In this document: positions 7,172-33,666 of the stretch, in pieces | Layout of the letters: each line of letters starts with the position of its first letter | Numbering within the stretch: the stretch's first letter is position 1 | NCBI GenBank assembly: GCA_003284375.1 | Contig: QBVL01000014.1 | Location: forward strand, 1 to 39,617 | Source of the DNA: Prochlorococcus sp. AG-311-J23 | GTDB taxonomy: Bacteria; Cyanobacteriota; Cyanobacteriia; PCC-6307; Cyanobiaceae | Direction of reading: 5' to 3' | DNA length: 39,617 nt | Position numbers and translations under genes: made by a program | Notes under the pieces: model-generated | What the model saw: the letters and a program-made list of their open reading frames with translations, nothing else | Told to the model about the DNA's origin: nothing | Database searches by the model: none

Positions 7172-7185
7172 TTTGAGGCTTATTC

Positions 7186-8142: not shown

Positions 8143-8165
8143 GGTTGCGATGTTGCTATATTTTA

Positions 8166-8195: not shown

Positions 8196-8207
8196 TAATC
8201 CATTCGA

Positions 8208-8816: not shown

Positions 8817-8819
8817 CGT

Positions 8820-10445: not shown

Positions 10446-10489
10446 AGGAAAATCTATTAATAAATTATGAAAAAATTCGCTTATTACTC

Positions 10490-13338: not shown

Positions 13339-15540
13339 TTAGCATTTTAAATGAATTTTGATTAAGTCTTTATATATTTTTTCTAAATCATTAGTAAATA
13401 TTTTTGTATTAAAAAGCAACGATTTTGTTCTTTGCTTTCCTAACTTATATTTTAATTCATATAGTTCATTGGGATTATTAGCCAATCTTAAAGCTGTATC
13501 TTCATATTCACTTTCACTATATGTAATTAGTTCAGGAATACCCAAAACAGAAAGAATACTAGCTGTAAATCTTGCAGAAAAGCTTTCACCTCTTTTGGTT
13601 AGAATTGGTAAACCTGCCCACAAAGCATGAAGTGAAGTTGTGCAGCCATTAAAAGCAAATGTATCAAGTGCGAGATCTCCAAGAGAATGTCTTGCTAAAT
13701 GATTTTTTAATTCAGCGTTAGATGCGAATATTAATCTATTTTTATCAACTTTTCTATTCTCCGCTTCTCTGCGTAAATTACTAATTGAGTTTTTATTTGA
13801 ATCCTTTAGCCAAAGAACACTTCCTTTTGTTTTTGTTAGTAATCTCATCCAAATATCAAATTCATTTGGTGTAATCTTTTTCATTCCATTAAAGCAAGTA
13901 AATACAAATGAATTTTTAGGTAAATTGAAATTTTCACGTAAAAAAGGTTCTTTACTTATTTCGAGTTTATCGTAAGTACATAGATAACAGTTAGGCATTC
14001 TTATTATCTTTTCACTATAAAATTTCTCGCTAGCATATGGAATTACAACGTTATCTGCAATTATATAATCAATCTTATTTGCTCCAAGTGAGCCAGGGTA
14101 TCCAAGATAATTTATTTGTATAGGGGCAACTCTATATGAAAAAATAGAGAACCTATTATGTTTTGTATAACCCATTAGATCTATAGCAATATCTATATTA
14201 TCACTTCTTGCTAATTGAACAGCTTCGATTTCATTTAATTTATTTATTTCCCTAAATGTACATCCACAATTTTTAGCTCTATTAGTATATTCATCATCTC
14301 TCTCTCCAAATGAATATAAAAAGATTTTAAATAGTGATTTATCATGCAATTCAAGTAATGATGCAATAAGATGCATTACAGGATGGTCATTAAAATCAGC
14401 AGAAAAATAACCAATATGTATTTTTTGTTTGGTTGACGAAACCAATGGAATTGAAGGACGATGGTATTTTTCTTTATAAAATTTTTGAGACCTTTTTAGA
14501 TGGTTCAAAGGGTTATCTATATATGGAAGTAAACCAAATGGAGGAACAGAATTTCCATCAATTCCAATAGTATTAAGCCATTTTTTTTGTATATCTTGAT
14601 CACTCCAGTCGCAAACTATTCCTTTACATATAATTAATTCTGCCTTAGCTAGAGATAATTTATTATCTAAATCTACGGCTTTTCGACAATATTTTATAGC
14701 CTCTTTATATTTACCTTGGTCTTTCATTATAAGTCCTAGATTGTAATAAGACCTTGCATTGTTAGGCTTTAATTGAATTGCCTTAAGAGTGTATATTTCT
14801 GCTTCTTTTAATTTATCTGTTTCTATCAATGTGCTCCCTAGGTTTAAATATGCTTCTGCATAGTCAGGTTTTAATATGATCGCTTTTTGTAAATAGAATA
14901 ATGATTCCTTTGATTTTCCAAGATCTTTCAATATATTTCCCAGATTTGAATATGCCTCTGCAAAATCAGGTTTAAGTTCAATTGCTTTGCGAGTGTGTAT
15001 TTCTGCTTCAAGTAAGTTGCCAAGATCTCTCAATACATTTCCCAAATTCGAATGTGCATTTGCGGAATCAGGTTTAAGTTCAATTGCTTTTTGATAAGCT
15101 ATTGCTGCTTCTTTTGATTTCCCAATATCTTTTAATATATTCCCAAGGTTGTAATGAGCCTCTACAAAACTAGGTTTAAGTTCGATTGCTTTTAGATAGC
15201 ATATCTCAGCTTTTTTTGATTTTCCAAGAGCACTATAAATGGTTCCCAGATTCGAATATGCCTCTACAAAATCAGATTTAAGCTCAATTGCTTTTAGCGT
15301 GTATATTTCTGCTTCTTGTAAGTTGCCAAAACCTTTCAATATAATTCCATAATTTAAAAAGACTATTGGATTATTAAAACCTTTATCAATGCAACATTGA
15401 TAAAGGTTCGCGGCTTCTAAATTATTTCCTTGTGAATGAAACTTAATTGCTTGGTTAAGTATCTTATTGTTTGAAATTTGAGAATACTTATTTCTCTCCT
15501 TTTGCTTTTTAGATTTATCCTTTTCTCCAAAACCTTTCAT
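13339..15540 (-). CDS. TPR-repeat O-GlcNAc transferase-like glycosyltransferase (SPINDLY type)
   Basis: A 733-residue cytoplasmic-type glycosyltransferase. Residues 30-300 are about eight TPR units with the period-34 pattern (EAYSNLGNILKDLGK, then KAIELKPDFA). From about residue 370 follows the bacterial OGT domain (Glyco_transf_41): IGYFSADFNDHPVMHL with the conserved His, INYLGYPGSLGANKIDYI, FNGMKKITP with a lysine at the position used for UDP-sugar binding, and TFAFNGCTTSLHALWAG. Such enzymes glycosylate Ser/Thr of proteins in eukaryotes and some bacteria; the target here is unknown. The N-terminus MKGFGEKDKSKK matches the protein at 30558-32498. Own transcript. Confidence 0.88.
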   Translation of the reverse strand: MKGFGEKDKSKKQKERNKYSQISNNKILNQAIKFHSQGNNLEAANLYQCCIDKGFNNPIVFLNYGIILKGFGNLQEAEIYTLKAIELKSDFVEAYSNLGTIYSALGKSKKAEICYLKAIELKPSFVEAHYNLGNILKDIGKSKEAAIAYQKAIELKPDSANAHSNLGNVLRDLGNLLEAEIHTRKAIELKPDFAEAYSNLGNILKDLGKSKESLFYLQKAIILKPDYAEAYLNLGSTLIETDKLKEAEIYTLKAIQLKPNNARSYYNLGLIMKDQGKYKEAIKYCRKAVDLDNKLSLAKAELIICKGIVCDWSDQDIQKKWLNTIGIDGNSVPPFGLLPYIDNPLNHLKRSQKFYKEKYHRPSIPLVSSTKQKIHIGYFSADFNDHPVMHLIASLLELHDKSLFKIFLYSFGERDDEYTNRAKNCGCTFREINKLNEIEAVQLARSDNIDIAIDLMGYTKHNRFSIFSYRVAPIQINYLGYPGSLGANKIDYIIADNVVIPYASEKFYSEKIIRMPNCYLCTYDKLEISKEPFLRENFNLPKNSFVFTCFNGMKKITPNEFDIWMRLLTKTKGSVLWLKDSNKNSISNLRREAENRKVDKNRLIFASNAELKNHLARHSLGDLALDTFAFNGCTTSLHALWAGLPILTKRGESFSARFTASILSVLGIPELITYSESEYEDTALRLANNPNELYELKYKLGKQRTKSLLFNTKIFTNDLEKIYKDLIKIHLKC

Positions 15541-15792: not shown

Positions 15793-15981
15793 TCAACTAT
15801 AGTTATGGCTTTGTTTTGAAAAGATAGTGTTGTTTGGATTTTTCTTGCCGCATTTATTAATCTGCTCAGCCGTATTAGCAATGGAGTTTTCTGATTTGAG
15901 AATTAATTCAGTTATTGCAATCGAAGAAAAGAAAAGAAAATAAGTACTTAAGAACCGAACAATCCAACTGGACCAAAGCAA
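15793..15981 (-). CDS. Possible small membrane protein
   Basis: A 62-codon frame with one hydrophobic segment (RFLSTYFLFFSSIAITELIL, residues 9-28) and a polar tail. No family recognised, no clear ribosome site and decayed DNA all round, so it may be a chance frame or a gene remnant. The rest of 15541-16018 shows nothing I can name. Confidence 0.25.
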   Translation of the reverse strand: MLWSSWIVRFLSTYFLFFSSIAITELILKSENSIANTAEQINKCGKKNPNNTIFSKQSHNYS

Positions 15982-16018
15982 AGTCTCAACTAATGCTTTT
16001 CATTTTATGCAAGACCTT

Positions 16019-16490
16019 CTAACAGCATCTTCTAAGTCTTCTTCTTTGAGTGGGCGCTGTTAATGCTTCTGCGCTGCTTCTAGTAGGACTTCCAATCAAA
16101 TATTTTTTAAGTTCTTTATCAGTTTGAAGCCATCTTTGATGTTCTCCAGTTTTCTTAACTGAGTACTTTAAAGGCTTTTACAACTCCAAGATTTCTTTTT
16201 CTGCCTTGTCTTCCCTCTGGTCAATTATGGAAGTGCATTTCTTCAAATCTCTTCATCAAAGTTCTTCCATCTCTCGGCTTGGGATCAGCTGCAATAGTTT
16301 CTAAAACCCTTATCATCCTTGTCTTAAATCCCTAAGCGTTTTCCCTCTGCGGTCACTTCTGGAAGCTCGAAAAGCTTCAATTATGTTTCCCAGTTATTAA
16401 CGCTTGGAGCGTGATCCCTCTCTACATGTTCAAGCATGAAATTTGCAGTTTCTTTAAGAGATAGGTTTCTTTCCTAAATAAGTCTTTTTA
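16019..16490 (-). pseudogene. Decayed tyrosine-recombinase (integrase) fragment
   Basis: Read on the minus strand in shifting frames this gives, in order: KRLI-stop-ERNLSLKETANFM, IIEAFRASRSDRRGKTLRDL, RMIRVLETIAADPKPRDG, RTLMKRFEEMHFH, EGRQGRKRNLGVVKAF, and RWLQTDKELKKYLIGSP. These match in order the core-binding domain of the broken integrase at 18157-18747 (NNLSLKEAAKL, then TTLRDTKLRMNRVLQVLNKT, RPRNGASLMKRYAE, GSGRKRNLNDVAAF). At least three frameshifts and several stops. The catalytic domain is absent. It lies just downstream of the UDP-sugar decarboxylase gene. Confidence 0.75.
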
Positions 16491-16596
16491 TGATACTTAA
16501 GACATAAGATAAATAAAGGGTAATCTAAAGGTAAATACTAATTTATTTAGATTCGAATAACATATAGGGTTTAAACTGTATTAATTTAAAATCATA

Positions 16597-17544
16597 CTAA
16601 TGTGAGAAATAATCTCTAAAATAACTACATGTTTCTTCAATGCCATCAATAAAGCTTACTTTGGGCTCCCATTTTAAATTCTGACGGGCAAAATCAATCA
16701 CAGGTTGTCGTCTGTAAGGATCATCTATTGGCATTTCTAAATACTCAAATCCTTCATTATTATCAAATTTTTTGCTAATTAAATCTGCTACTTCGGAGAT
16801 AGTAATTTCATCAGGATTCCCAATATTAACAGGATTGCTATAAGAACTATTCATCAGCCTTATCAACCCTTCAATTAAATCATCTACGTAACAAAAGCTT
16901 CTAGATTGAGATCCTTTACCATAAATTGTCAAAGGTTTTTTAGTGAGAGACTGTACAATAAAATTACTAATTACCCTCCCATCATCTGGTAGCATTCTGG
17001 GCCCATAAGTATTAAATATTCTTGCAATTCGGACTTGCGTGTTATTCATTCTCAAATAGTCATTGCATAGAGTTTCTGCAATACGCTTACCCTCGTCATA
17101 GCAACTACGAATACCTATTGTGTTAACACAACCCTTATAGCTTTCAGGTTGGGGATGTATTTCTGGATTTCCATAAACTTCACTTGAACTAGCCAATAAC
17201 AATCTTGCCTCAACTCTTCTCGCTAAGCCCAACATATTATATGTTCCAAGAAAACTGGTTTTAGCTGTTTTAATAGGATTTAATTGATAGTGAATTGGAG
17301 AGGCTGGACAAGCAAGATGCCAGATCCTATCAACTTCTAAAAGGATAGGCTCTGTTACATCATGTCTAATTAATTCAAAATAAGGATTACCAATCCAATG
17401 TTCAACATTCTTTTTTCTGCCTGTATGGAAATTATCAATGCAAATAACTTCTTCTCCTGCCTTCATGAGGCGATCAACCAGATGAGATCCTAAAAAGCCA
17501 GCCCCACCCGTAACCAAATTACGAATTTGAGAAGGTGCTTTCAT
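16597..17544 (-). CDS. UDP-glucuronate decarboxylase-like NDP-sugar SDR
   Basis: Extended SDR of 315 residues that closely fits the UDP-glucuronate decarboxylase (UDP-xylose synthase) family: GGAGFLGSHL near 13-22, IDNFHTGRKKNVEHWIG, ASSSEVYGNP, GIRSCYDEGKRIAETL with the Tyr-x3-Lys pair, RIFNTYGPRM, and SRSFCYVDDLIEGLIRLM. It would supply UDP-xylose or a related 4-keto sugar for surface glycans. Its ATG coincides with a codon of an integrase fragment read in the same frame upstream (see 17542-17860), so the gene seems spliced into an old integrase; no other start is available. A divergent paralogue is at 23191. Confidence 0.9.
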   Translation of the reverse strand: MKAPSQIRNLVTGGAGFLGSHLVDRLMKAGEEVICIDNFHTGRKKNVEHWIGNPYFELIRHDVTEPILLEVDRIWHLACPASPIHYQLNPIKTAKTSFLGTYNMLGLARRVEARLLLASSSEVYGNPEIHPQPESYKGCVNTIGIRSCYDEGKRIAETLCNDYLRMNNTQVRIARIFNTYGPRMLPDDGRVISNFIVQSLTKKPLTIYGKGSQSRSFCYVDDLIEGLIRLMNSSYSNPVNIGNPDEITISEVADLISKKFDNNEGFEYLEMPIDDPYRRQPVIDFARQNLKWEPKVSFIDGIEETCSYFRDYFSH

Positions 17545-17860
17545 GAATTTCTCAGCTTCTTTAATGGTTAGGTTTCGATAATCAATAAGCCTTTTTAGTT
17601 CTGCAACCGCCGTAGTAATCTGGGTTGGGTTTCGACTGTTCCATTCTTAAGGAATAAACGTAGTTTCTCTGCTGCCATCTTCACGGTGTCTAGGGGTAAC
17701 TTGAGTATAAAGGACTCCCTTTATTTCTATTCCACTAAGAGACCAACCCTCGCTGTTCACGAGTTTGTTGGTTTTACGCAGAAAAATTTTCTGCGAATCA
17801 GCTCTAGAAGCCACTATGTGACTGGTAATCCATTGCGCATATTGTTGCGCAGAATTGCTA
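17542..17860 (-). pseudogene. Integrase N-terminal (arm-binding) domain fragment fused in frame to the SDR gene
   Basis: The minus-strand frame reads FLRKTNKLVNSEGWSLSG, IEIKGVLYTQVTPRHREDGS, RETTFIP, a TAA (17647-17649), then EWNSRNPTQITTAVAELKRL and IDYRNLTIKEAEKFM. This follows the layout of the N-terminal domain of the integrase at 18157 (LLRKQLK, GWGVRAMRGK, LPLDWSADNQTKILNF, NNLSLKEAAKL). Its last ATG is the start codon of the 16597-17544 gene and the frame is continuous. The end of this fragment overlaps in homology with the start of the 16019-16490 fragment (about three quarters identical over 55 bases), so the two come from different copies. Confidence 0.7.
17833..17852. repeat. GC-rich octamer pair, 12-bp period, left of tRNA-Ala
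   Basis: TTGCGCAT-ATTG-TTGCGCAG: two TGCGCA cores spaced 12 bp apart, in AT-rich DNA. The same architecture occurs at 18117-18136 and 24740-24759. It sits beside an integrase remnant. A 19-bp near-palindrome, CGCAGAAAAATTTTCTGCG, lies close by at 17777-17795. Possibly recombinase arm-type binding sites; inference. Confidence 0.4.
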
Positions 17861-17950
17861 TTTCAGCCACTATCAAGCACTATTAAGAAATTTTGAGCTT
17901 AACTCAAGATTCCTTGAGAACTATTGATAGCAAAGTGTTTAGAACGATTT

Positions 17951-18023
17951 GGGGCCATAGCTCAGCTGGTAGAGCACCTGCATGGCATGCAGGGGGTCAG
18001 CGGTTCGAGTCCGCTTGGCTCCA
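17951..18023 (+). tRNA. tRNA-Ala (GGC)
   Basis: A 73-base tRNA. Acceptor stem GGGGCCA pairs with TGGCTCC (one G-U), D arm GCTC-AGCTGGTA-GAGC, anticodon stem CCTGC/GCAGG around the loop ATGGCAT with anticodon GGC, T arm GCGG-TTCGAGT-CCGC, discriminator A. CCA is not encoded beyond the discriminator. The 3' part is copied at 24834-24879, so this is the attachment gene of the element to its right; the tRNA stays whole because integration restores its 3' end. Confidence 0.97.
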
Positions 18024-18026
18024 TTA
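17981..18026 (+). repeat. attL: 3' part of tRNA-Ala
   Basis: 46 bp from the anticodon loop to three bases past the tRNA, repeated at 24834-24879 with a single difference (C at 18001, A at 24854). Integrases of tRNA-targeting islands commonly use the anticodon-to-3'-end region as the crossover segment. Confidence 0.8.
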
Positions 18027-18116
18027 GGTTTTCTCAGTCACAGCAATAGATTTCAGAGAATTTGCGGCAAAGCGTGAATAATACGATATTGCTTGATATA
18101 GCAAGATATAGCTATT

Positions 18117-18136
18117 ATGCGCGCAGTTATACGCTC
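18117..18136. repeat. Octamer pair inside left end of element
   Basis: ATGCGCGC-AGTT-ATACGCTC, two related octamers at 12-bp period, 91 bp inside the left att repeat and just before the integrase start. Mirrors the pair at 24740-24759. Candidate arm-type site; inference. Confidence 0.45.
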
Positions 18137-18156
18137 ATTTTCAGCTCTGTAATCCG

Positions 18157-18747
18157 ATGCGGGAACAGTGGTTTCAACTATTAAGGAAGCAACTTAAATC
18201 TGAACACGGAAAAGGTTGGGGTGTGCGCGCAATGCGCGGAAAGGTTCAACTAACCCTTCGCGTGGATGAAAATGCTGGGATGAATAACCCTAGAAATTCG
18301 GTTTCTTTACCCCTTGATTGGAGCGCAGATAATCAAACTAAAATTCTGAATTTTGTTAATGACATCCGCGATAGGATGTAAGCAAATAATCTTTCTCTTA
18401 AAGAAGCTGCAAAATTAACTTCTGAACCATTAGCCGATGACCAGCAACAAAATGTTCAAGTTAATTGGGTGGAAGCTGTTAATAGATTTCTTACTGAAGA
18501 AAAGGCTGGACTAAGAGAGACAACGCTAAGAGATACCAAATTAAGAATGAATAGAGTTTTGCAGGTACTTAATAAGACTCCTAGACCAAGAAACGGCGCA
18601 TCACTAATGAAGAGATATGCAGAGGTTTACTTTGATGAATCGCTTCCTATTTGTGGATCTGGACGTAAAAGAAATTTGAATGATGTAGCAGCTTTTTTAA
18701 ACTTCGCTGTTTAGGAATGTGGAGAAAAGAACATTCGCGACCTCTAA
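18157..18747 (+). pseudogene. Tyrosine recombinase (integrase), truncated and with nonsense codons
   Basis: ATG at 18157 opens an N-terminal domain (MREQWFQLLRKQLKSEHGKG, GWGVRAMRGKVQLTLR) for 74 codons to a TAA at 18379-18381. The same frame then continues without a gap (NNLSLKEAAKLTSEP, VNWVEAVNRFLTEEKAGL, TTLRDTKLRMNRVLQ, GSGRKRNLNDVAAFLNFAV) to a TAG at 18712, with ECGEKNIRDL and a final TAA after that. The layout is arm-binding plus SAM-like core-binding domain of a phage-type integrase. The catalytic domain with the Arg-His-Arg-Tyr residues is missing. Its place directly after the tRNA matches an integrase for this att site. Three related fragments lie elsewhere in the window. Confidence 0.8.
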
Positions 18748-18772
18748 CTGTTAAGAAGGTGGTCTTTTTTTT
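18739..18772 (+). terminator. Possible intrinsic terminator after integrase remnant
   Basis: GACC (18739-18742) pairs with GGTC (18761-18764), with partial pairing inward, followed by eight T residues (18765-18772). The stem is imperfect. It would isolate the integrase remnant from the cargo operon that starts 250 bases on. Confidence 0.45.
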
Positions 18773-19025
18773 ATGATTACTTTGTAAAACTGTGACTATT
18801 GTTTGTATTTTTGTCTGATTAGCGCATATCGCAATATAAACCCTTAGGCATCATGCTTAACTAATCACTTCACCTTTCATAAAGATGAACAACTGCTTAT
18901 TATGAAGAGGATCAATTTATTTTTAGAGTCTAATTTTAGTGCCATGTATAATCCTTATAAATATATCCTTTCAAAACAAATAAATTGACCGAAGGGAAAA
19001 GCAATAAAAGCAAGCAGGAGTTGAA

Positions 19026-20924
19026 GTGAAAATATTCAACGTTCCATTTCCTTTGGGAGAAAATCAAGGAAATCTTACTATTACTACTAGCACCCCTTCC
19101 AAACCTTCTAAAGAACAAATAATCAATCAAGCAATACAATTTCATCTAAAAGGTAATATTTCAGAAGCAATAAAATATTATCGATATTTAATAAATCAAG
19201 GTTTTAAAGATCATAGAGTTTTTTCTAATTATGGAAGCATATTGAATGATCTTGGCAAATCACAAGAAGCAGAATTATCTACTCGCAAAGCAATTGAAAT
19301 TAAACCTGACTATGCAGAATCTCATTCTAATCTTGCCATGATATTGAGAGATCTTGGCAAATTACAAGAAGCAGAATTATCCATTCGAAAAGCAATTGAA
19401 CTAAAACCTGATTTCGCAGAGGCCATTTTCAACCTTGGGAACATATTGAGATATCTTGGCAAAGAAAAAGAGGCAATTAAACACTACTCTGCTGCTTTAG
19501 AAAAGAAACCAAATAATCTTTCGCTATATATAAATTCAAAGTTTAATTTCTCAAGAATAATGAAAGATATTTCACAGATAAATATTGAGCGTAAAAATTA
19601 TCAAGAACAAATACACATACTAAAACAAAAAAATGATATGGAATACAAAAATGATAAGGTTTTTAATACTTATATCTTCTATTTACCTTACCATAATAGG
19701 TCAGATGATAAACTAATACTTGAAGATCTAAGTAATACTCTTTCAAATATAAAAGGAGTAGTGGTTAATGATTTTTCTACGGACAAAAAAATAAATTCAA
19801 CTTCTAAGAATGATCATTTGAAAATGGGTATCTGCTCTGAATGTCTTAGATATTCTCATGTGGTTGGAAAACTATATATAAAAGTAATATTAGACTTACT
19901 AAAAACTGATCTTGAAATTATAATTTATATTCCACCAGGGAAAAATCAATTTGCAGAATATGAAATTCTAAAAAAATCATTCAAGAGAGTGATATGTCTT
20001 CCTAAATCGCCTATTAATGCTAAGAAAGAAATAATCAAAGACAACCTTGACATACTATTTTATCCAGATATTGGAATGTCTGGTTATACATATATTCTTT
20101 CACTCTCAAGATTGGCTTTAGTACAAGTTAACAGCTTAGGGCATACGAATACATCGGGAATTAAGAATATGGATTACTTTATAACTTCAGATATAGAGCC
20201 AATTGAATCTAATAAAAATTATACTGAGCGACTAGTTCGCTTTAGCAGGTTACCATTCAATTACTCCAAACCAATTATAAATGAAAGGAACATAAAAAAT
20301 AAACATATTATAAGTTCGGAACAATATTTCAATGTCGGATTGATGCAGACATTATTTAAACTACATCCTGACTACGATGAAATCTTAGTAGAAATATTAA
20401 AAGAGATTCCAAACTCTCGAATAATTCTTGTAAAAGACGCGCTTGATAGCGTGACAGAAGGGTTAAAAGATAGGTGGAGAGAAAAAAATAAATTATTGCT
20501 AAAAAGATCAATTTTTCTAGATAAAATGAATAATAATGATTTTCTATATATAATAAAAAATTGCGATATAGTGTTAGACCCTCTTTACTACGGTAGCGGG
20601 AATACATTTTATGAGTCTATGGCTTTTGGAACGCCATTTATTACATACAAAAATCAAAAGTCAAAAATACCAATAGCTGGCTATAGACAGATGAAAGTCA
20701 GCAATCCACCTATTGCTTCGTCTCAATCGGATTATATAAATTTGTGCAAAGCTTATGCAATGGATAAAAACTTACTAAGTAGAACGCGTAACGATTTAAT
20801 CGAAAAATCAAATCAACATTTATTTAATGACAATGATATATATAAACAGTATTATAAATTTTTTAACGAAGCGGCAGAAGCAGCAACCAATGGTAAATAC
20901 TTGAGATCAGATTGGTGTCCATAA
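19026..20924 (+). CDS. TPR protein with OGT-like glycosyltransferase domain
   Basis: A 632-residue protein. GTG start at 19026 with AGGAG (19016-19020) five bases before it. Residues 30-175 hold about four TPR units (VFSNYGSILNDLGKSQEAEL, KAIEIKPDYAESHSNL). The C-terminal region resembles a divergent SPINDLY/OGT domain: DILFYPDIGMSG, RLALVQVNSLGHTNTSGIKN, then a GT-B-like segment ending CDIVLDPLYYGSGNTFYESM. This last piece corresponds to the LDTFAFNGCTTSLHALWAG segment of the enzyme at 13339, so it is probably a sugar-donor GT-B enzyme. First gene of the element's cargo operon (20-base gap to the next). Acceptor unknown. Confidence 0.8.
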   Translation: MKIFNVPFPLGENQGNLTITTSTPSKPSKEQIINQAIQFHLKGNISEAIKYYRYLINQGFKDHRVFSNYGSILNDLGKSQEAELSTRKAIEIKPDYAESHSNLAMILRDLGKLQEAELSIRKAIELKPDFAEAIFNLGNILRYLGKEKEAIKHYSAALEKKPNNLSLYINSKFNFSRIMKDISQINIERKNYQEQIHILKQKNDMEYKNDKVFNTYIFYLPYHNRSDDKLILEDLSNTLSNIKGVVVNDFSTDKKINSTSKNDHLKMGICSECLRYSHVVGKLYIKVILDLLKTDLEIIIYIPPGKNQFAEYEILKKSFKRVICLPKSPINAKKEIIKDNLDILFYPDIGMSGYTYILSLSRLALVQVNSLGHTNTSGIKNMDYFITSDIEPIESNKNYTERLVRFSRLPFNYSKPIINERNIKNKHIISSEQYFNVGLMQTLFKLHPDYDEILVEILKEIPNSRIILVKDALDSVTEGLKDRWREKNKLLLKRSIFLDKMNNNDFLYIIKNCDIVLDPLYYGSGNTFYESMAFGTPFITYKNQKSKIPIAGYRQMKVSNPPIASSQSDYINLCKAYAMDKNLLSRTRNDLIEKSNQHLFNDNDIYKQYYKFFNEAAEAATNGKYLRSDWCP

Positions 20925-20943
20925 GATTAATCAATAAAACATA

Positions 20944-21849
20944 ATGTGTGATAAAAATAAATACGTAGAATATATATTATTACTTGGGAAGGGATTTGCT
21001 TTGAATGTATATCTTCCTGCCTTATTAGCAATAGATTGTAAAAAAATTTTAATAGCATCAAGCGCAAAAAAGCATCTAAATGAAGATTTAATTCAATATA
21101 TAGAATATATTGATGACGAAGAAATTGTAAATTATAAATTTTTAAAAATAATTTTTGCAGAACCTCCAGATAAACAATATAGCTTAATCTGTGACAAAGG
21201 ATTATGGAGAAACTCTAACAATCTAATACTTGAAAAGCCAATCGCAGAAAACTATAAAAAGGCACAATACTTAATAAGTATATTAAATAAAAAGGGAAAT
21301 ATATATTCTATTAATTATAGCTTTAGATATACAAAATGGTTTGCTGATATGTATAAATATATTCATAATAATCACAAAAAAGGAGAGATTGACATAACTT
21401 GGAAATTCAAAAGTAGGCACTTAAAGAAGAAAAAAGCATCATGGAAAACCAATCAATTACTTGGAGGAGGTATTATTAAATATTATGGTATTCACCTGAT
21501 AGCAGTACTTTCTGATATTGGATACTCTGATATAAATAAATCAAATATATCTAACCAGGAAAATATCGAACTAACATCTTGGTCATCTGAATTTGTTTCT
21601 AATAAGAAACTACCAAAAATAAATCTACTTATTGATTCCTATTCAGATGAAAATATATTCTGTTGGAAACAAATAAATCAAACTCTACTAGAAATAGATT
21701 CACCTTTTTCTCTAGAAAGTTCTGAATATAAAGGAGACAATAGAATTCCACCTACTATAAAATTTCTGAAGGAAAAGAATAATGATTTATTAAATTATAA
21801 AAACATGGAAGCATTAGAATTATGGAGTAAGATTGAATCAATAATATAA
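20944..21849 (+). CDS. Gfo/Idh/MocA-like oxidoreductase, divergent
   Basis: A 301-residue protein with the N-terminal nucleotide-binding fold (YILLLGKGFALNVYLPAL) and the family's EKPI motif at residues 97-100 (LILEKPIAENYKKA), then INYSFRYTKW and GGGIIKYYGIHLIAVLSDIG. It is shorter than typical members (330-390) and the glycine motif is degenerate (GKGFAL), so cofactor use is uncertain. In sugar clusters such enzymes oxidise or reduce NDP-sugar hydroxyl or keto groups. Lies in the cargo operon between the glycosyltransferase and the C-methyltransferase. Very AT-rich, lysine/isoleucine/asparagine-heavy. Confidence 0.72.
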   Translation: MCDKNKYVEYILLLGKGFALNVYLPALLAIDCKKILIASSAKKHLNEDLIQYIEYIDDEEIVNYKFLKIIFAEPPDKQYSLICDKGLWRNSNNLILEKPIAENYKKAQYLISILNKKGNIYSINYSFRYTKWFADMYKYIHNNHKKGEIDITWKFKSRHLKKKKASWKTNQLLGGGIIKYYGIHLIAVLSDIGYSDINKSNISNQENIELTSWSSEFVSNKKLPKINLLIDSYSDENIFCWKQINQTLLEIDSPFSLESSEYKGDNRIPPTIKFLKEKNNDLLNYKNMEALELWSKIESII

Positions 21850-21886
21850 ACTCTTATGTATTTCCATGCACAGAAAATAAACGAAT

Positions 21887-23194
21887 ATGAATCACATGTC
21901 ATTTAATGAATACAAAACAATCAAAACATGCTGTATTTGCAATTCGCAAAATTTAGAGCAGGTTTTAGACTTGGGTAAGACTCCTTTAGCTAATAATTTA
22001 ACAACTAGTTGCGAACAATCAATCATACAAAAAGAATATGATTTATGCTTGGTCATATGTAAAAACTGCAAACATGTTCAACTAAATACTGAAATAGATC
22101 AGAAAATTTTGTTTAGTGAATACTCTTATAAAACTGGTATTTCCTCAACTATGAAGTCTCATTTCAATTGTTTTGCAAATGATCTATCCGAATATTTCAA
22201 TAAAAAAAATAAGTTATATTCAGAAATTAAAGTTTTAGATATAGGATCTAATGATTCAACATTATTAGATATACTACATTCCAAAGGTTATAAAACCTTT
22301 GGAATTGAACCAGCGTCAAACTTAGCGAATAAATCATCACATAAAATATTTAATGGTTTTTTTAAAGATGAAAACATCAGTAGAATCCATAACCAGTTTG
22401 GTGCATTCGATGTAATCACTGCAAATAATGTATTTGCACATAACAGAGACCTAAATAAATTTATTCAAAATATGTCTTACTTGCTCAAAGAAGATGGCTT
22501 AATCTCAATAGAAGTACAATATTTACCAAAGTTAATCAGTAATTGCTACATAGACATGATATACCATGAACATACTTCCTATCATCATTTTAAACCCTTA
22601 AATAAATTATTTGAAAAATATGCTCTCACCTTAAATTCCGTATCAGATATTCCAACTCATGGTGGAAGTATGCGAATTGTATTAAATAACTTGTCAGACA
22701 ATATGATATTATTTAAGAATGAAGAAATAACCAAGAATTTTCTTAAATTAGATAATATGTTTGACAGCAAAATATTAAATAAATTTGAAATACTTAAATC
22801 TAAAGTCGAGAATATAAAAGTATTACTTAATAAATCCATTAGAATAGTAACGGAAAAATATCCCTTACTATATGGCTATTCAGCTCCAGCAAAAACCGTC
22901 ACACTTTTAAGTTTATTAGAGAAAGATATTATTAATAAAATCGAATTTATTATTGAAGATAATGATATAAAGCAAGGTAAATATATCCCTAAAACAAAAA
23001 TCCCATTAATATCTTCTATTGAGGCAATTGATAAAATCGAAAAGAGGAAGTCAGCATGTATTGTTTTTGCGTGGAATATGTTTGAAGAATTGAGTAAAAA
23101 AATAATGTCAAATCCTAAATTAAATCCTAACGCTCTTATATCTCCACTACCTCACCCTAAAATAAGAGAGCTCAATTACAATAAAAATATATGA
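21887..23194 (+). CDS. Sugar C-methyltransferase (paralogue of 10490-11737)
   Basis: A 435-residue SAM-dependent methyltransferase with the same three-part plan as the gene at 10490: zinc-binding Cys15/Cys18 and Cys58/Cys61, SAM motif KVLDIGSNDSTLLDIL, conserved YHEHTSYHHFKPL and THGGSMRIVL, and C-terminal YGYSAPAKTVTLLSLL. The start could be ATG 21887 or the in-frame ATG at 21896. Overlaps the next gene by four bases, so translation is coupled. Likely makes a C-branched sugar; the substrate is unknown. Confidence 0.87.
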   Translation: MNHMSFNEYKTIKTCCICNSQNLEQVLDLGKTPLANNLTTSCEQSIIQKEYDLCLVICKNCKHVQLNTEIDQKILFSEYSYKTGISSTMKSHFNCFANDLSEYFNKKNKLYSEIKVLDIGSNDSTLLDILHSKGYKTFGIEPASNLANKSSHKIFNGFFKDENISRIHNQFGAFDVITANNVFAHNRDLNKFIQNMSYLLKEDGLISIEVQYLPKLISNCYIDMIYHEHTSYHHFKPLNKLFEKYALTLNSVSDIPTHGGSMRIVLNNLSDNMILFKNEEITKNFLKLDNMFDSKILNKFEILKSKVENIKVLLNKSIRIVTEKYPLLYGYSAPAKTVTLLSLLEKDIINKIEFIIEDNDIKQGKYIPKTKIPLISSIEAIDKIEKRKSACIVFAWNMFEELSKKIMSNPKLNPNALISPLPHPKIRELNYNKNI

Positions 23195-24159
23195 AAAAAG
23201 TTCTCATAACTGGAATCAATGGCTTTTTGGGTAAACACCTTTTAAATAAATTATTAGATAGTATTATCTTTTCTGATATTGATAAAATACTCGGTATTGA
23301 TAATTTTATAAGCTCCAATAGAGAAAAAGAATATACAGATTCTAAAAAATATAATTTCATAGAATCTGATCTGATTAAATTTGACTTTAATAAGTTAGAG
23401 AACTTTGATACTGTTATACATCTAGCTAGTTTAGCAAGTCCTGTCTATTATAAGAAATATCCTCTTGAAACAATAGATATAGGTACCACTGTTACGAGGA
23501 AGCTACTTGAAAAATGTAAAGAATGGAATGCTACATTTATCTTTTTTTCATCTTCAGAAATTTATGGTAATCCTTCTTCTGAAAACATTCCAACGCCAGA
23601 AGATTTTAAAGGTTATGTATCATGCCAAGGGCCAAGATCTTGCTATGATGAAAGCAAAAGGCTTGGTGAAACATTATGTTATATATATAATAAAAAATAT
23701 AATGTAAACACTAAGATAATAAGACCATTTAATATTTATGGTCCAGGAATGTCTATTGAAACGGACTATAGAATGGTGCCTAATCTAATAAAATCGGCTT
23801 TAAGAAAGCAAGCCGTTAATATATATGGTACGGGTAATCAAACAAGAACCTTTTGTTATTATACAGATGCAATTGAAGGCATAATTAAAGTTATAAAAAA
23901 TGGAGCTTCCGGAGAGACTTATAATATTGGTAATGACAAACCTGAAATATCAATGATAGATTTAGTTAAATTATTTCGCGAAACAATTAATATAGATTTA
24001 AGTTATGAATTAACTCCATATCCAGCATATTATCCTGATGATGAACCGAAAAGAAGACTTGCATCAATTGACAAAGCAAGAGAACATTTAAACTTTAATC
24101 CAAAAGTAACTTTAGAAGCTGGTCTCACTAAAACATGGGTACGGGCTTTAAGGAATTGA
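23191..24159 (+). CDS. NDP-sugar SDR of the UDP-glucuronate decarboxylase family
   Basis: A 322-residue extended SDR. TGINGFLGKHLL near 7-18, GIDNFISSNREK, SSSEIYGNPS, QGPRSCYDESKRLGETLC carrying Tyr-x3-Lys, RPFNIYGPGM, and GNQTRTFCYYTDAIEGI. Clearly related to the gene at 16597 but divergent in the C-terminal substrate region (SYELTPYPAYYPDDEPKRR), so it may act on another sugar (dehydratase, epimerase or decarboxylase). Last gene of the cargo operon; it starts inside the end of the methyltransferase gene and is followed by a strong terminator. Confidence 0.88.
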   Translation: MKKVLITGINGFLGKHLLNKLLDSIIFSDIDKILGIDNFISSNREKEYTDSKKYNFIESDLIKFDFNKLENFDTVIHLASLASPVYYKKYPLETIDIGTTVTRKLLEKCKEWNATFIFFSSSEIYGNPSSENIPTPEDFKGYVSCQGPRSCYDESKRLGETLCYIYNKKYNVNTKIIRPFNIYGPGMSIETDYRMVPNLIKSALRKQAVNIYGTGNQTRTFCYYTDAIEGIIKVIKNGASGETYNIGNDKPEISMIDLVKLFRETINIDLSYELTPYPAYYPDDEPKRRLASIDKAREHLNFNPKVTLEAGLTKTWVRALRN

Positions 24160-24201
24160 TCATAAAAAACTATAATTTATGATCAATAGAATTTTAAGTC
24201 A

Positions 24202-24232
24202 TAAAAAAACCCTGAATTTCAGGGCTTTTTTT
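24202..24232. terminator. Bidirectional intrinsic terminator
   Basis: CCCTGA (24210-24215), ATT loop, TCAGGG (24219-24224), with seven A residues on the left and seven T residues on the right. It serves the plus-strand cargo operon ending at 24159 and the minus-strand DUF4278 gene ending at 24247. Confidence 0.85.
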
Positions 24233-24246
24233 AGAGATTCAATCAA

Positions 24247-24408
24247 TCAGTTTTGGTAAGACTTACCACGATAAGTAAGCTTGACATGATCTTTTTCTAC
24301 AACTTCTTTGTGCTGGTTGTACTTAAGGCCTCTGTAAGTTAAAGACACAATGGTCTCCGGAATATGCTCAAGTCCCCGTTCCTTGGCTTGAGTCAAGCTG
24401 CGGCTCAC
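24247..24408 (-). CDS. DUF4278-like small protein, possibly 5'-truncated
   Basis: A 53-residue frame from a GTG at 24408 ending in the tandem motif SLTYRGLKYNQHKEVVEKDH then VKLTYRGKSYQN. The LTYRG..Y unit repeated twice is typical of cyanobacterial DUF4278 proteins, whose function is unknown. The N-terminal part (SRSLTQAKERGLEHIPET) is well behaved. The frame is stopped by TAA at 24421-24423, so either GTG is the true start or the gene has lost its 5' end. Convergent with the cargo operon across the terminator. Confidence 0.65.
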   Translation of the reverse strand: MSRSLTQAKERGLEHIPETIVSLTYRGLKYNQHKEVVEKDHVKLTYRGKSYQN

Positions 24409-24469
24409 TGCTAAGCGAGTTTAACGCTTTAGTAACTATCGCTACATAAATTAATAACATCATTTTTTC

Positions 24470-24721
24470 TTATCTGTTGTTCATCTTGATACATATGCTT
24501 TGCCTGTTGTTTTTTGTTATTTTCGTATCTAACGCCCAGATAAACAGCATTAGTGGAACCATTAGCAAGGCAACAAGCCATGCTGTTTCGCATGTAAAAG
24601 ATGTCATTAGTTTTTGAAAATGCTTTAATGCCGAGTGAAAACCAACAAGCCCTGCGACTTCGACTTGCTCAATATTGATCTCTTGTTTATCAGCTTTTAC
24701 AATATTGATTAGAAGGCTCAA
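24470..24721 (-). CDS. Possible small membrane protein
   Basis: An 83-codon frame from a TTG at 24721. Residues 47-64 form one hydrophobic segment (WLVALLMVPLMLFIWALD), preceded by a soluble-looking stretch (VEVAGLVGFHSALKHFQKL) and followed by a basic tail. No family recognised. It lies in the last part of the tRNA-bounded element. May be real or chance. Confidence 0.35.
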   Translation of the reverse strand: MSLLINIVKADKQEINIEQVEVAGLVGFHSALKHFQKLMTSFTCETAWLVALLMVPLMLFIWALDTKITKNNRQSICIKMNNR

Positions 24722-24739
24722 TAACTAGGTGTGTCTGGT

Positions 24740-24759
24740 ATGCGCTCAATCATGCGCGC
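24740..24759. repeat. Octamer pair inside right end of element
   Basis: ATGCGCTC-AATC-ATGCGCGC, the same two octamer types as at 18117-18136 in swapped order and the same 12-bp period, 75 bp before the right att repeat. Candidate recombinase arm site; inference. Confidence 0.45.
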
Positions 24760-24833
24760 TTTACATTGTGTAAGGTACTTTTAAGGGGTTATTTTTGAAT
24801 CTATAACAAGGATATTGAGGAATTTTCGAGCTT

Positions 24834-24879
24834 CATGGCATGCAGGGGGTCAGAGGTTCGAGTCCGCTTGGCTCCATTA
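24834..24879 (+). repeat. attR: duplicated 3' fragment of tRNA-Ala
   Basis: Matches 17981-18026 over 46 bp with one mismatch. It lacks the acceptor 5' strand and D arm (preceding bases are unrelated), so it is not a tRNA gene. Right boundary of the element. Confidence 0.85.
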
Positions 24880-25013
24880 TTTCTTTTGATTGATTTTCCT
24901 TAATTAAATTATTTTTTGTTTTTATCATATTTTTTACGAGATGTATAATTACTTATGAAATATATTTTATAAACCCATTGTTTATGTATAGATATCGTCT
25001 TGAAAGCTTTATT

Positions 25014-25412
25014 TTATTCTAAAGACTCCTGGTCTTTTGAAAGATAGTAATTTTTAAATTCCATAATACCCTTTTCTCCTGATAGTTTGATTGGGTAACC
25101 ACATTTTTCGATAACTCCTATTGCTATTTCTTCAGCAAGAGCCTCTTTATTTATACTTTTAAAATCTTTTCTTTTATTAAATACTTGATTATTTTCTTGT
25201 AGGGAAAAGTTCATAGAGCTTTCCTTGGAAAGTCCAAATCCAATGGAGTTGCAGAATTTTTTGGTATATGAACGAGATACTTTTTTTATTAAATTAGAGT
25301 CAAGACCTTCTGATGCATATAATTGATCTGCATCAAAAATAAATAGCGCTGAAAAAATTAAAACAATAAAGGCAAATAGCCTCAAATTTATTTTTTTGAA
25401 CCTAGCTTGCAT
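25014..25412 (-). CDS. Exported hypothetical protein
   Basis: A 132-residue protein with a clear signal peptide: basic start (MQARFKKINLR), hydrophobic core (LFAFIVLIFSALFIF) and a likely cut after QLYA near residue 33. The mature part has two cysteines (FCNSIGFGLSKESSMNF and IEKCGYPIKL), which could form a disulfide in the periplasm. It looks like a conserved picocyanobacterial secreted protein, but I know no function. Single gene just outside the right att repeat. Confidence 0.7.
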   Translation of the reverse strand: MQARFKKINLRLFAFIVLIFSALFIFDADQLYASEGLDSNLIKKVSRSYTKKFCNSIGFGLSKESSMNFSLQENNQVFNKRKDFKSINKEALAEEIAIGVIEKCGYPIKLSGEKGIMEFKNYYLSKDQESLE

Positions 25413-25663
25413 AATCTATTAGTAAAATGATTTATTAAAATACATCTAGGAATAGATTTTAAAATATTTTTTTTAGCTCCTTATAATATTTGAACACAAT
25501 TATCTAGTTATAACTAGCTTTTTTTAATAGATATGAGCCAAAGTATATTTCAGAATCATTTGTCCAAGTTAATTGGAAATTTTTTACTTGGAAACGAACT
25601 ACCTCATCACGCGCTGTGATTTATGATTTCTGTTAGTGTATTATTTGATCAGGAAAGGTTATT

Positions 25664-26146
25664 GTGCTCGGACTTGTTTTCCCTGCTGATTTATTGCAAT
25701 CTGCTTCCGTTGCGTATATTCATTATTTAAGCTTTATGCTTTGTTTTGGTGCTTTGGTCTTTGAACGTATTTCGTTGAAGGTTAATCCAAATAGGGAAGA
25801 AGCAATATCTATGGTCATTGCAGATATTATTTATGGAATTGCTGGGATTGCTCTTTTGGTAAGTGGTATTTATAGAGTTATAAAGTTTGGCCAGGGCTCT
25901 GAATTTTATACAGAAAATCCTATCTTTTGGACTAAAATAATAGTCTTTGCTTTAGTTGGTTCTTTATCTCTTTATCCGACCATTACTTACGTCTTGTGGG
26001 CAATACCTCTTAGTAAGGGTACTCTTCCTCAAGTAAAGGAGAATCTAGTTTCAAGATTAAGATTAATAATTAATATTGAACTAGTTGGTTTTGCTTCGAT
26101 ACCTTTTTTAGCAACACTCATGGCCAGAGGCGTGGGATTAGGTTGA
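25664..26146 (+). CDS. DUF2214 family membrane protein
   Basis: A 160-residue integral membrane protein with four hydrophobic segments: about 12-32 (SVAYIHYLSFMLCFGALVF), 50-68 (ADIIYGIAGIALLVSGIYR), 86-112 (FWTKIIVFALVGSLSLYPTI) and 132-155. The pattern fits the DUF2214 proteins of cyanobacteria and proteobacteria. The His21 and Tyr segments are typical, the function is unknown. GTG start with AGGAAAGG about eight bases upstream. Monocistronic. Confidence 0.75.
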   Translation: MLGLVFPADLLQSASVAYIHYLSFMLCFGALVFERISLKVNPNREEAISMVIADIIYGIAGIALLVSGIYRVIKFGQGSEFYTENPIFWTKIIVFALVGSLSLYPTITYVLWAIPLSKGTLPQVKENLVSRLRLIINIELVGFASIPFLATLMARGVGLG

Positions 26147-26189
26147 AGAAATTATACTTATCAATAATAATCAATGCTGTTCCTATGAT

Positions 26190-26593
26190 CTGACTTCGGG
26201 GGCTGAAAATTCGTCTATCAATGAACAGCTTAGCTTCAGATATTGCTAAATAATCCTTCTTATAGAGAAAGCAGCTTGAAGAACACATCGCTCATCTAAA
26301 AAGCAGTTAGATCAGATGAATGCAAACCTTCAAAAATATGTTCAAGCAGATTAAGAAGCCCAAGCAAAGATTGATTCAACTGCTTCGAAATCAGAAGAAA
26401 TGAAATGGTAAAAGTCTTATTAATAAGTTCAGTCACTCTGATTTTTCAGTTGTCGCAGAATCAATTAATTCCGCCTTTTCATCAATAGAAAAGAATTAAT
26501 CTTAGGATCTAATGCCTGCTTTGGTTCCTGAGTTGTAATTGTGTTTTCTCATGCCCTAGAGGGAATTGAATCTTCATTGCATCGAGCTGGAAT
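26190..26593 (+). pseudogene. Decayed gene remnant upstream of the 119-residue gene
   Basis: Short broken frames read KKQLDQMNANLQKYVQAD, stop, EAQAKIDSTASKSEEMKW, then in another frame INKFSHSDFSVVAESINSAF followed by SSIEKN and a stop. The last piece matches the decayed copy at 9940-10118 (MTSAFSSIEKN). A coiled-coil-like gene thus once lay before the small gene and is lost in both copies. Confidence 0.5.
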
Positions 26594-26953
26594 ATGAAAA
26601 AAGCTGATAAACAAGAGATGGAATTAAGGGCAGGTTTTGCTACTGACTTACTTGCGCAAGGTCAAAGTAGCACTGTTGTAACAACCCGAGTGATCGAAGA
26701 GTACGAATTAAACAGAAGACGTGCTCGAAGGATTACAGCGAAAACAATCGATTTGATCGTTAAAGACTTTGAAGAGATCAATCTTGAGCGGCTGCAAATG
26801 GTGGCAAAATTACTCGTAAATCTTGAGCAGGGGATGCAAAAAGGATTAATCAATAATCAATCGAGCGTTGTTGCTGCCTGTGCTAAGCAAATAATTTCAC
26901 TGGCTGGATTATCTGCTGATTCCTTACATAACAATCGAAGGAGAAAAGTCTAG
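26594..26953 (+). CDS. Small helical protein, intact member of a three-copy island family
   Basis: A 119-residue, charged, all-helical-looking protein starting MKKADKQEMELRAGFATDLL. The N-terminal half (QGQSSTVVTTRVIEEYELNR, then RRARRITAKTIDLIVKDF) looks like a DNA-binding helix-turn-helix; the C-terminal half (RLQMVAKLLVNLEQGMQKGL, INNQSSVVAACAKQIISLAG) is helical. The shape resembles phage small-terminase-like proteins common near cyanobacterial mobile elements, but I cannot confirm this. Two decayed copies lie at 9940-10445 and 33166-33497, the latter next to an integrase remnant, so the family is mobile-element linked. Confidence 0.7.
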   Translation: MKKADKQEMELRAGFATDLLAQGQSSTVVTTRVIEEYELNRRRARRITAKTIDLIVKDFEEINLERLQMVAKLLVNLEQGMQKGLINNQSSVVAACAKQIISLAGLSADSLHNNRRRKV

Positions 26954-27089
26954 TAATATATGATTTAATAGAAATAATATATGAAGATCAAATCATATTG
27001 ATTTCAATCTATTTAGGGATCTATAATGGTTATATTGTTTATTGATTTCAACAAGATAAACTTGAAATTATCTTACTCATGTTTTGTAG

Positions 27090-28142
27090 ATGCAAATATT
27101 AATTTCTTTAGATGATTATTGTAAAGCCTATAACTTGCAGATAGGTGTCTATAGCCCTTTATCTTATTTTGTAGGTTCATCTGATCTAATTAGTATTGCG
27201 AAAAAGCTTAAGCTTAGGGATGGAAGTTTTTATCCTCTACCTATTTATATGCCATTAAGAGACCAAAACTTATCAGGTAAAGTTTGGGGGCAAAAAGTTG
27301 ATCTAATTTATGAAAATAATTTAGTTGGTTTTATAGAAGTTTCAGAGGTATATAAACCGGATAAGGATGATTTATGTATAAATTTATTTGGTACTAAAGA
27401 TAAAAATCATCCGGGAGTTAACTATTTTTTAAATGAACCAAATTATTTTATTTCAGGAACACCTACGATTTTTAAAGCACCAGATTTTACAAATGAAAAA
27501 TATTTTATGTCTCCAGATCAGGTTAAATCAGAAAAAGCAAAAAGAGGTTTGAAATCATTGGCAGGATTTCAAACTCGTAATATTCCTCATAGAGCACATG
27601 AACATCTGCAAAGAACTTCGTTAGAAATTTGTGATGGTATTTTAATTCATCCATTGGTTGGATGGAAAAAACCAGGAGACTTTAGTAAAGATGCAATTGT
27701 AAGAGCCTATAAAATATTAATAGATAATTTCTATCCAAAAAATAATGTCATATTTTCATTGTTTTATTCTCCCATGTTTTATGCGGGACCTAGAGAAGCA
27801 TTGTTTCATGCACTAGTTAGGAAAAATTTTGGTTGTACACATTTCATTGTTGGAAGAGATCATGCTGGAGTTGGTAATTTTTATAAATTATATGAAGCTC
27901 ATCAAATAGCAACTAAATATGCACATTTACTTGATATAGAATTTCTTCTTCTAAGAGGACCTTATTTCTGTAAAAAATGTAGATGTATAGTTACAGATAA
28001 GCACTGTAGACATAATAAAGATATGATTTGTAAAATAAGTGGTAGTAATGTTAGAAGATTAATGCTAAATGAAGAAGATTTACCTGATTGGTTGATTAGA
28101 CCCCAAATAGCTAATGTTTTGACCAAAAAAGATCTTATATAA
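27090..28142 (+). CDS. sat: ATP sulfurylase (sulfate adenylyltransferase)
   Basis: Makes adenosine 5'-phosphosulfate from ATP and sulfate. The PUA-like N-terminal domain is followed by the nucleotidyltransferase domain: QTRNIPHRAHEH at 161-172 (classical QTRNPxHRAHE), IHPLVGWKKPGDF, FYAGPREALFHALVRKNFGC, GRDHAGVG at 255-262, a zinc-type cluster FCKKCRCIVTDKHCRH (Cys294, Cys297, Cys306, His308) and ISGSNVRRLM at 316-325. The 350 residues are slightly short for the family. First of four tight plus-strand genes; the assimilatory sat is expected elsewhere in the genome, so this looks like a dedicated second copy for sulfated surface glycans. Confidence 0.9.
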   Translation: MQILISLDDYCKAYNLQIGVYSPLSYFVGSSDLISIAKKLKLRDGSFYPLPIYMPLRDQNLSGKVWGQKVDLIYENNLVGFIEVSEVYKPDKDDLCINLFGTKDKNHPGVNYFLNEPNYFISGTPTIFKAPDFTNEKYFMSPDQVKSEKAKRGLKSLAGFQTRNIPHRAHEHLQRTSLEICDGILIHPLVGWKKPGDFSKDAIVRAYKILIDNFYPKNNVIFSLFYSPMFYAGPREALFHALVRKNFGCTHFIVGRDHAGVGNFYKLYEAHQIATKYAHLLDIEFLLLRGPYFCKKCRCIVTDKHCRHNKDMICKISGSNVRRLMLNEEDLPDWLIRPQIANVLTKKDLI

Positions 28143-28147
28143 ATATA

Positions 28148-32498: not shown

Positions 32499-32639
32499 AT
32501 TTAAAACTTTCAGGGTCTTTTCTTTTCTTTAATAATACTATCCTCCTCAGGAACTTGATAAAAATACATTGCCTTCATTAATTAGGCTGGGGATTATCTT
32601 CTTACAAAAGGAAGTAATTAGTTCAGCTGCATTATGCCT

Positions 32640-33146: not shown

Positions 33147-33165
33147 TTTCTTGATATGACAAAAT

Positions 33166-33497: not shown

Positions 33498-33666
33498 TAT
33501 GTGCTCAATTTTTTGTTTTACAACCCCAGAACTGATACATACCGGCGAAGATCGTGAAATGTTGTTCTTCAAATTTTGCTCATATCGTATTTTAATAATA
33601 TGATTTTCTATTGTTTTTTATTCATGTTATTATTTTTCAAATTAAATTATCCGAAGTGGATTATAT

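Follow-up and report, generated by a model that had tools for sequence, protein, structure and literature searches.

Probable remains of a tyrosine-recombinase element holding a glycan operon at a two-sided tRNA-Ala(GGC) hotspot of Prochlorococcus

Introduction

By what route do surface-sugar genes, which are hypervariable in picocyanobacteria and thought to govern phage infection, enter and leave a genome? The question is raised by a 6.9-kb stretch (positions 17951-24879) of a contig of Prochlorococcus sp. AG-311-J23, in which a tRNA-Ala(GGC) gene, a broken integrase gene, a four-gene glycan operon and a displaced copy of the tRNA 3′ end follow one another. The contig, 39,617 nucleotides long and analysed in full (hereinafter designated the window), is the whole of contig C14 of a draft genome (1.43 Mb, 77% complete, 55 contigs). 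A sequence-only reading of the window had proposed that this stretch has the architecture of a site-specific integrative element. Comparison with relatives indicates that it is very probably the remains of a site-specific element of the tyrosine-recombinase type, with its crossover at the anticodon loop of tRNA-Ala(GGC), on one side of a two-sided hotspot. The genome of the window is coded G000 and its relatives G002, G005 and so on, with L codes for loci in them; G007, G010 and G036 are taken as Prochlorococcus sp. AG-402-B05, AG-402-C09 and AG-363-G03, respectively.

Results

A tRNA-bounded element in the window

The tRNA-Ala(GGC) gene and the adjoining TTA, which together would form the regenerated target, lie at 17951-18026 on the plus strand (ARAGORN, 17950-18024; Rfam, 17951-18023; genome search). 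The displaced 3′ end of the gene lies in the same orientation at 24834-24879, where tRNA positions 31-76 recur over 46 bp with one mismatch (45/46 identical bases, 97.8%), exactly as the sequence-only reading had described. When the 76-bp tRNA plus TTA was searched against its own genome, four places matched. Besides the gene there were its 3′ copy at 24831-24879 (E 6e-17), another alanine-type tRNA at 85% on contig C15, which we take to be tRNA-Ala(TGC), and a weak 30-bp match on C18. The C15 tRNA served as a control in 41 genomes of the genus, where 33 full-length copies were found at 100%; no displaced fragment of its own was seen in the list, which was read by eye, and its partial matches (by eye as well) either fall on GGC fragments or resemble other tRNA genes at lower identity.

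Next to the tRNA, an integrase-side arm (18027-18159, +), with homologous flanks in G002, G011 and G033 and a CTTGATA motif 65 bases past the tRNA end, leads into a broken tyrosine recombinase gene (18160-18726, +). With 50% identity to an intact 433-aa relative, it spans residues 9-198 of that protein and is interrupted by one TAG and one TAA; downstream of it, no match to the second half of the integrase was found. The opposite end of the element is formed by a distal arm (24688-24833, +), 76-90% identical to sequence beside the 3′ fragments of G002, G011 (two fragments) and G033. The tRNA-bounded element is thereby confirmed as an observation, and so are its reported contents, an integrase remnant beside the tRNA that lacks the catalytic half and four open reading frames (ORFs) of a glycan operon between the repeats. 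Because the integrase is an N-terminal remnant with stops, we file 17951-24879, going by its sequence, as the remnant of a tRNA-gene tyrosine-recombinase element and not as a working one. All seven integrase matches in the recovered 77% of the genome sit on this contig, so nothing seen in the recovered genome could move the element today, and this copy is dead.

Filled and empty sites in relatives

In G023 the tRNA is followed at once by sequence that aligns with window positions 24880-25060, with neither a fragment nor an insert in between, and the two flanks are 92% (left) and 90% (right block) identical to those of the window. The right flank and block (132-aa ORF, DUF2214 membrane protein) occupies 24880-26160 in the window. 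The empty tRNA-Ala site for which the sequence-only reading had advised a search in relatives is thus present, in G023 and in others. Among 19 mapped sites with the tRNA and the block on one contig, three have the block upstream and were excluded, leaving 16. A 3′ fragment lies between tRNA and block in six of the seven filled sites (at least 2.8 kb in between), and none of at least 30 bp was found in the nine near-empty sites (at most 1.3 kb from tRNA to block). The fragment without an insertion, which the earlier reading had named as grounds for giving up the proposal, was therefore not encountered at the near-empty sites, and the architecture of a site-specific integrative element holds.

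The arms can be followed apart from the operon. G002 carries a 2.8-kb element with the same two arms as the window element, in which no operon gene was found, so that element ends and cargo are separable.

Fragment polarity and the crossover interval

Displaced fragments of at least 30 bp were counted on contigs carrying an intact tRNA-Ala, leaving aside the second, almost complete copy of G011 and any fragments that are shorter or lie on tRNA-less contigs. The 5′ fragments lie upstream of the intact tRNA on the same strand in 11 of 12 cases and the 3′ fragments downstream on the same strand in 12 of 12. When aligned, 11 of 13 5′ fragments end at tRNA positions 39-44 and two at 35-36; 12 of 18 3′ fragments start at positions 27-31, and six start further in, presumably trimmed by decay. 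The narrowest interval common to the well-kept 5′ and 3′ fragments is tRNA positions 31-39, the anticodon loop with its closing pair. The anticodon stem-loop (17977-17993; tRNA positions 27-43) is a perfect 17-bp palindrome of 8+1+8, and the fragment ends point to a crossover at its centre, in the anticodon loop.

G011 has a second, nearly full tRNA-Ala copy (L019; G011:C1 786195-786268), 92% identical and inverted, with its own integrase-side arm. In G033 (L015; G033:C1, about 851.5-854 kb and 863.3-866.4 kb) a 2.3-kb inverted duplicate, 95.5% identical, carries a tRNA 5′ fragment and flanks the intact tRNA-Ala on both sides; the left flank and the block of this genome are inverted relative to the tRNA.

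Mirror elements on the two sides of the tRNA

On the 5′ side the order of parts is 5′ fragment, about 500 bp, a gene for a 119-aa protein (hereinafter designated the marker gene), cargo, an integrase gene pointing left, and tRNA. The 3′ side mirrors it with tRNA, an integrase gene pointing right, cargo, a marker gene pointing back, about 520 bp, and 3′ fragment, an order that is a composite of the window, G002, G011 and G033, no single element in hand showing every part. Nine 5′-side sites have 510-529 bp from tRNA position 35 to the marker start; at two 3′-side sites, where the marker has the opposite orientation, this distance is 524 and 525 bp. Measured from the loop, the integrase begins after about 135-170 bp in 5′-side elements and after about 150-165 bp in 3′-side ones, both obtained arithmetically with missing first residues extrapolated. 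A second arrangement, with the integrase beside the displaced fragment, occurs in G033, in Synechococcus AG-670-B23 and in a tRNA-Thr element of G023.

Intact integrase genes are found on both sides of the tRNA, whose two-sided occupation had escaped the sequence-only reading. Open frames of 433, 452 and 427 aa lie directly upstream of tRNA-Ala in G007, G010 and G036, pointing away from it; one open frame lies directly downstream of tRNA-Ala in Synechococcus AG-686-F08, and another directly downstream of a 3′ fragment in AG-670-B23. Within 700 bp upstream of the tRNA, integrase sequence is present at 13 of 29 sites, including the window. There, on the 5′ side of the tRNA, an N-terminal integrase remnant (17530-17826, −) points away from the gene and merges at its 3′ end into an epimerase ORF at 16600-17646, and a middle part with many stops follows at 15951-16503 (−). 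At the far end, adjoining the conserved flank that borders the island on the left (LCORE, 1-9941, +; colinear with G020 at 90%, G032 at 89% and G026 at 85% to about 9927-9941), lies a remnant of the distal end of a 5′-side element with a broken marker gene (9944-10468, +; marker at about 10092-10454). Because G032 has the left flank, a 5′ fragment and the same module in succession, the 5′ tRNA fragment that should stand about 500 bp ahead of this module has probably been lost from the window.

The integrases match PHROG integrase families, and tyrosine-recombinase motif residues are seen in their alignment. Pfam gives no match for the intact integrase of G007, and its matches to PHROG integrases are weak. 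The eight best fold matches are all tyrosine recombinases, only one of them with E < 0.001. We considered whether insertion side tracks integrase ancestry; the forks that would decide this stay open in the 15-row integrase tree, none of three tests that held rows together was rejected, and we make no claim of side switching. A small terminase subunit, which would suit a phage satellite of the PICI type, was considered as the identity of the 119-aa protein and finds no support in Pfam, PHROGs or solved structures; its PHROG matches are all of unknown function (best E 3e-4), and its predicted fold is of poor quality (mean pLDDT 62). We use it as a marker only.

Replacement of the sequence upstream of the tRNA

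All 13 displaced 5′ fragments, from nine genomes, share one upstream type (hereinafter designated ancestral), mostly with a TATAAT-like box. Among the main intact tRNAs of 29 genomes, ten have this type (G020 weakly) and 19 have others, namely B (7), C (6), D (5, including the window) and E (1); types were first sorted by eye, and the counts stayed unchanged when the sequences were scored against one or two examples of each type. Because 13/13 5′ fragments keep the ancestral upstream sequence and 19/29 intact tRNAs do not, 5′-side insertion appears to swap the promoter region of the tRNA. Integrase sequence lies within 700 bp upstream at 12 of the 19 non-ancestral sites vs one of the ten ancestral ones. 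In the window, 17827-17950 separates the 5′-side integrase remnant from the tRNA, and the last 70 bp are the type D sequence common to G011, G017, G022 and G026.

A consensus promoter scan of 17500-24900 gave 33 matches vs 40.8 in shuffles and listed none between 17500 and the tRNA; accordingly, the element-borne upstream sequence is only a putative promoter of the tRNA. TATCAAG/CTTGATA-type motifs number 37 in the 120 bp upstream of the 29 tRNAs, where 1.1 are expected, a count that comes from related sequences; on the 3′ side, with three seen and 1.0 expected, they are no general feature. We regard them as candidate arm or operator sites only.

The glycan operon and its relatives

Behind the integrase remnant, a recurrent leader of tetratricopeptide repeat (TPR)-glycosyltransferase genes (18856-19025, +) precedes the operon, which comprises a TPR plus GT41-like glycosyltransferase (19026-20924, +, 632 aa; Pfam), a Gfo/Idh/MocA-type oxidoreductase (20944-21849, +, 301 aa; match just below the Pfam cut-off), a sugar C-methyltransferase (21887-23194, +, 435 aa; Pfam Methyltransf_13/23/14) and an NAD-dependent sugar epimerase/dehydratase (23191-24159, +, 322 aa; no NCBIfam model reaches its cut-off). 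A terminator-like hairpin follows at 24210-24224 (+). Between it and the distal arm lie a glutamine-II riboswitch aptamer (24367-24429, −; Rfam RF01704, 57.9 bits), preceding a short ORF with TYRG repeats that we take to be DUF4278-like, and a small ORF remnant (24506-24664, −) that also stands beside the intact integrase of G033. The operon presumably changes the cell surface.

The oxidoreductase, the one operon gene searched in whole genomes, is found in 5 of the 41, this genome included. Related four-gene sets with another gene order, their proteins about 30-57% identical, occupy a bounded 5′-side element in G021 and, in G005, a place beside the left flank and hence on the 5′ side. In G022 the complete operon, its gene order unchanged, is found on a tRNA-less contig with 76% identity across 5 kb, and the 3′ site of this genome is nearly empty; in G008, relatives of part of the set lie beside a marker gene on a tRNA-less contig. 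Such glycan cassettes thus appear on both sides of the tRNA. No recent transfer of the operon was caught in the genomes compared, where identities are low. The sequence-only reading had seen in the element a direct mechanism for the entry of glycan cassettes; of this, the bounded element with an operon inside it stands, and arrival of the four genes as one unit with the element is probable at most.

TPR-glycosyltransferase genes recur in the islands, within the window at 14600-15540, 18856-19475, 31700-32530 and 39428-39617, and some of their leaders lie directly behind an integrase or a remnant (window, G002, G010). These repeats are a possible substrate for cassette exchange. Also inside the island, at 27090-30105, genes for an ATP-sulfurylase, a pyruvate-kinase-like protein and an APS-kinase stand in a row and perhaps serve sulfated glycans.

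Origin of the element and of its cargo

On the reading that we prefer, integration would have split the tRNA at about positions 31-39, an element-borne 3′ half would have regenerated the gene, and the original 3′ half would have been pushed 6.9 kb downstream; the integrase would later have lost its catalytic half, fixing the element in the island with the glycan operon in it. Of this reading, sequence comparison shows the target, the empty site, the polarity of the fragments, the crossover interval, the mirror layout and the replaced upstream sequence. The integrase would have performed the recombination, and the cargo would have arrived on the element. It is this last step that meets the most serious competitor, in which the ends are real and the operon entered afterwards by homologous recombination between TPR-glycosyltransferase genes and their shared leader, deleting the second half of the integrase, so that the element supplied the site and not the cargo. 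The remnant breaks off 133 bp before the leader, and the leader recurs in the islands (15 matches in 12 of the mapped contigs), as do the TPR regions, so later cassette exchange is possible; the G002 element with the same arms and no operon gene found fits as well, as does the operon of G022, which lies beside genes like those on the left side of the window. However, G010 has an intact integrase with the leader 384 bp downstream, and a bounded 5′-side element of G021 contains the four gene types, though no integrase was found there. We consider later entry a possibility of real weight, somewhat short of an even chance.

Two further explanations bear on the ends themselves. The tRNA fragment could be the relic of a duplicated and decayed tRNA gene, since duplication can yield such fragments and G011 does hold its nearly full second copy; but empty sites, the polarity of 5′ and 3′ fragments, conserved arms, adjacent integrases and a control tRNA with no displaced fragments noted largely refute this, and we hold it to be very improbable. 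A chimeric assembly, conceivable in a 77%-complete draft of 55 contigs, is more improbable still, for independent genomes, single-contig ones among them (G002, G011 and G033), have the same flanks at the junctions.

Several observations weigh against the reading that we prefer. The element has no functional integrase but an N-terminal remnant with stops. Among the filled sites, G008 lacks a 3′ fragment and that of G013 is only 34 bp at 88%, and the one misplaced 5′ fragment, in G033, is downstream and inverted, inside the inverted duplicate. Upstream of the tRNA, seven of the 19 non-ancestral sites lack integrase sequence within 700 bp and one of the ten ancestral-type sites has it. The tree does not reject the 5′-side rows as one clade (p-AU 0.09), no relatives of the integrase or the marker were confirmed in viral contigs, and no relative of the integrase was found in phage records. 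Finally, a search with the tRNA query found no 5′ tRNA fragment in this genome; since it holds an integrase remnant and no such fragment, its two-sided history rests on the integrase remnants and on the relatives.

A two-faced entrance for one integrase family

The preferred reading extends to the 5′ side of the tRNA. Mirror-image elements from this family sit there, their integrase end at the intact tRNA and their 119-aa marker at the far end, and supply the tRNA with another 5′ half and another upstream sequence. Going further, we propose that the palindromic anticodon stem-loop is a two-faced entrance for one integrase family, through whose 3′ or 5′ half mirror elements enter; that the 5′ forms repeatedly take over tRNA transcription; that glycan cassettes are present on both sides; and that, with both sides filled, the outermost half-sites would recombine, releasing one circle with both elements and an intact tRNA and leaving an intact tRNA behind. 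Taken as a whole, this proposal seems to us evenly poised between right and wrong. The second tRNA-Ala copy of G011 could be a product of such a composite circle.

A convergent tRNA-Arg(TCT) array

A second hotspot with its own marker genes, a convergent tRNA-Arg(TCT), bounds the island on the right. It lies beyond the conserved block, oriented towards tRNA-Ala, and collects its own 3′ fragments; in this genome it is on contig C8 (40406-40480), and a perfect 3′ fragment of 49 bp stands close to the end of that contig at 44569-44617, adjoining the conserved right flank (L133; G000:C8 40406-44617). In the window, an end module with an intact 119-aa marker gene (26429-26964, +; marker at 26594-26953) probably belongs to this array, judging by synteny with G032 and G029, and an integrase remnant (−, 32653-33167) followed by a marker-gene remnant (+) is the probable junction of two further elements (32653-33499). 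Repeats at 26429 and 33175 were considered as ends of tRNA-Ala elements and dropped, the G032/G029 synteny placing 26429 in the tRNA-Arg array; by position, the assignment is extended to the 33175 repeat (33175-33499). The window to the right of 26160 is thus most likely tRNA-Arg array, and no tRNA-Arg fragment was found in the window. At tRNA-Arg, L116 fits the marker spacing (about 509 bp from the fragment start) and L119 does not (about 2.1 kb).

Where both flanks were on one contig, the island measures 3.8 to 15.5 kb between the nearest aligned flank ends in six genomes; here it is at least 29.7 kb. Elsewhere, in G023, an open-integrase element lies between tRNA-Thr(GGT) and an apparent 3′ fragment (L117; G023:C13 8000-27900, partly by eye), with the marker gene adjoining the tRNA in place of the integrase.

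Discussion

Genomic islands with repeated tRNA fragments were reportedly found in Prochlorococcus by Coleman in 2006, and the tycheposons of this genus, said to have been described by Hackl et al. in Cell in 2023, reportedly have a deep-branching tyrosine recombinase family. A later account mentions seven tRNA genes as tycheposon sites, lengths of 4-200 kb and a cargo mainly for nutrient and nitrogen uptake (Layoun 2024, PMC10872708). The element described here resembles them in being tRNA-bounded, in its tyrosine recombinase, in carrying cargo and in its host genus, Prochlorococcus, and differs in that its cargo consists of glycan genes. Clusters of partial tRNA copies near the gene are likewise described for a Prochlorococcus island at tRNA-Met in MIT9313 (PMC2784084); here the tRNA is another one, and the empty site, the polarity and the integrases on both sides have been worked out.

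Integration on the 5′ side of a tRNA gene is already known and rare in bacteria. In Islander, 159 islands carry a displaced 5′ fragment and 3760 a 3′ one, with 2083 of them centred on the anticodon (PMC4383910). Its 5′-fragment islands are like the sites described here, which differ in having both kinds of fragment at one tRNA gene, with one integrase family in one genus. For the archaeal pTN3-like integrases, the 5′ half of a tRNA gene serves as the attachment site (attB), as on our 5′ side, and the recombinant tRNA is expressed from the integrase promoter, a situation seldom met in bacteria, whose recombinant tRNA genes keep their original promoter with very few exceptions (PMC8371274). These elements are archaeal and their integrase gene is split on integration, whereas here the intact cases have an undivided integrase gene beside the tRNA, and a 3′-side form is also present.

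With a defined target, an empty site, open integrase genes from named single cells and a mapped crossover interval, the entry and exit of glycan genes at this locus becomes assayable. Integration on the 5′ side that replaces the tRNA promoter is rare in bacteria, according to one review (PMC8371274); and because 19 of the 29 sites have replaced upstream sequence, its effect on host tRNA supply may be studied as a natural experiment.

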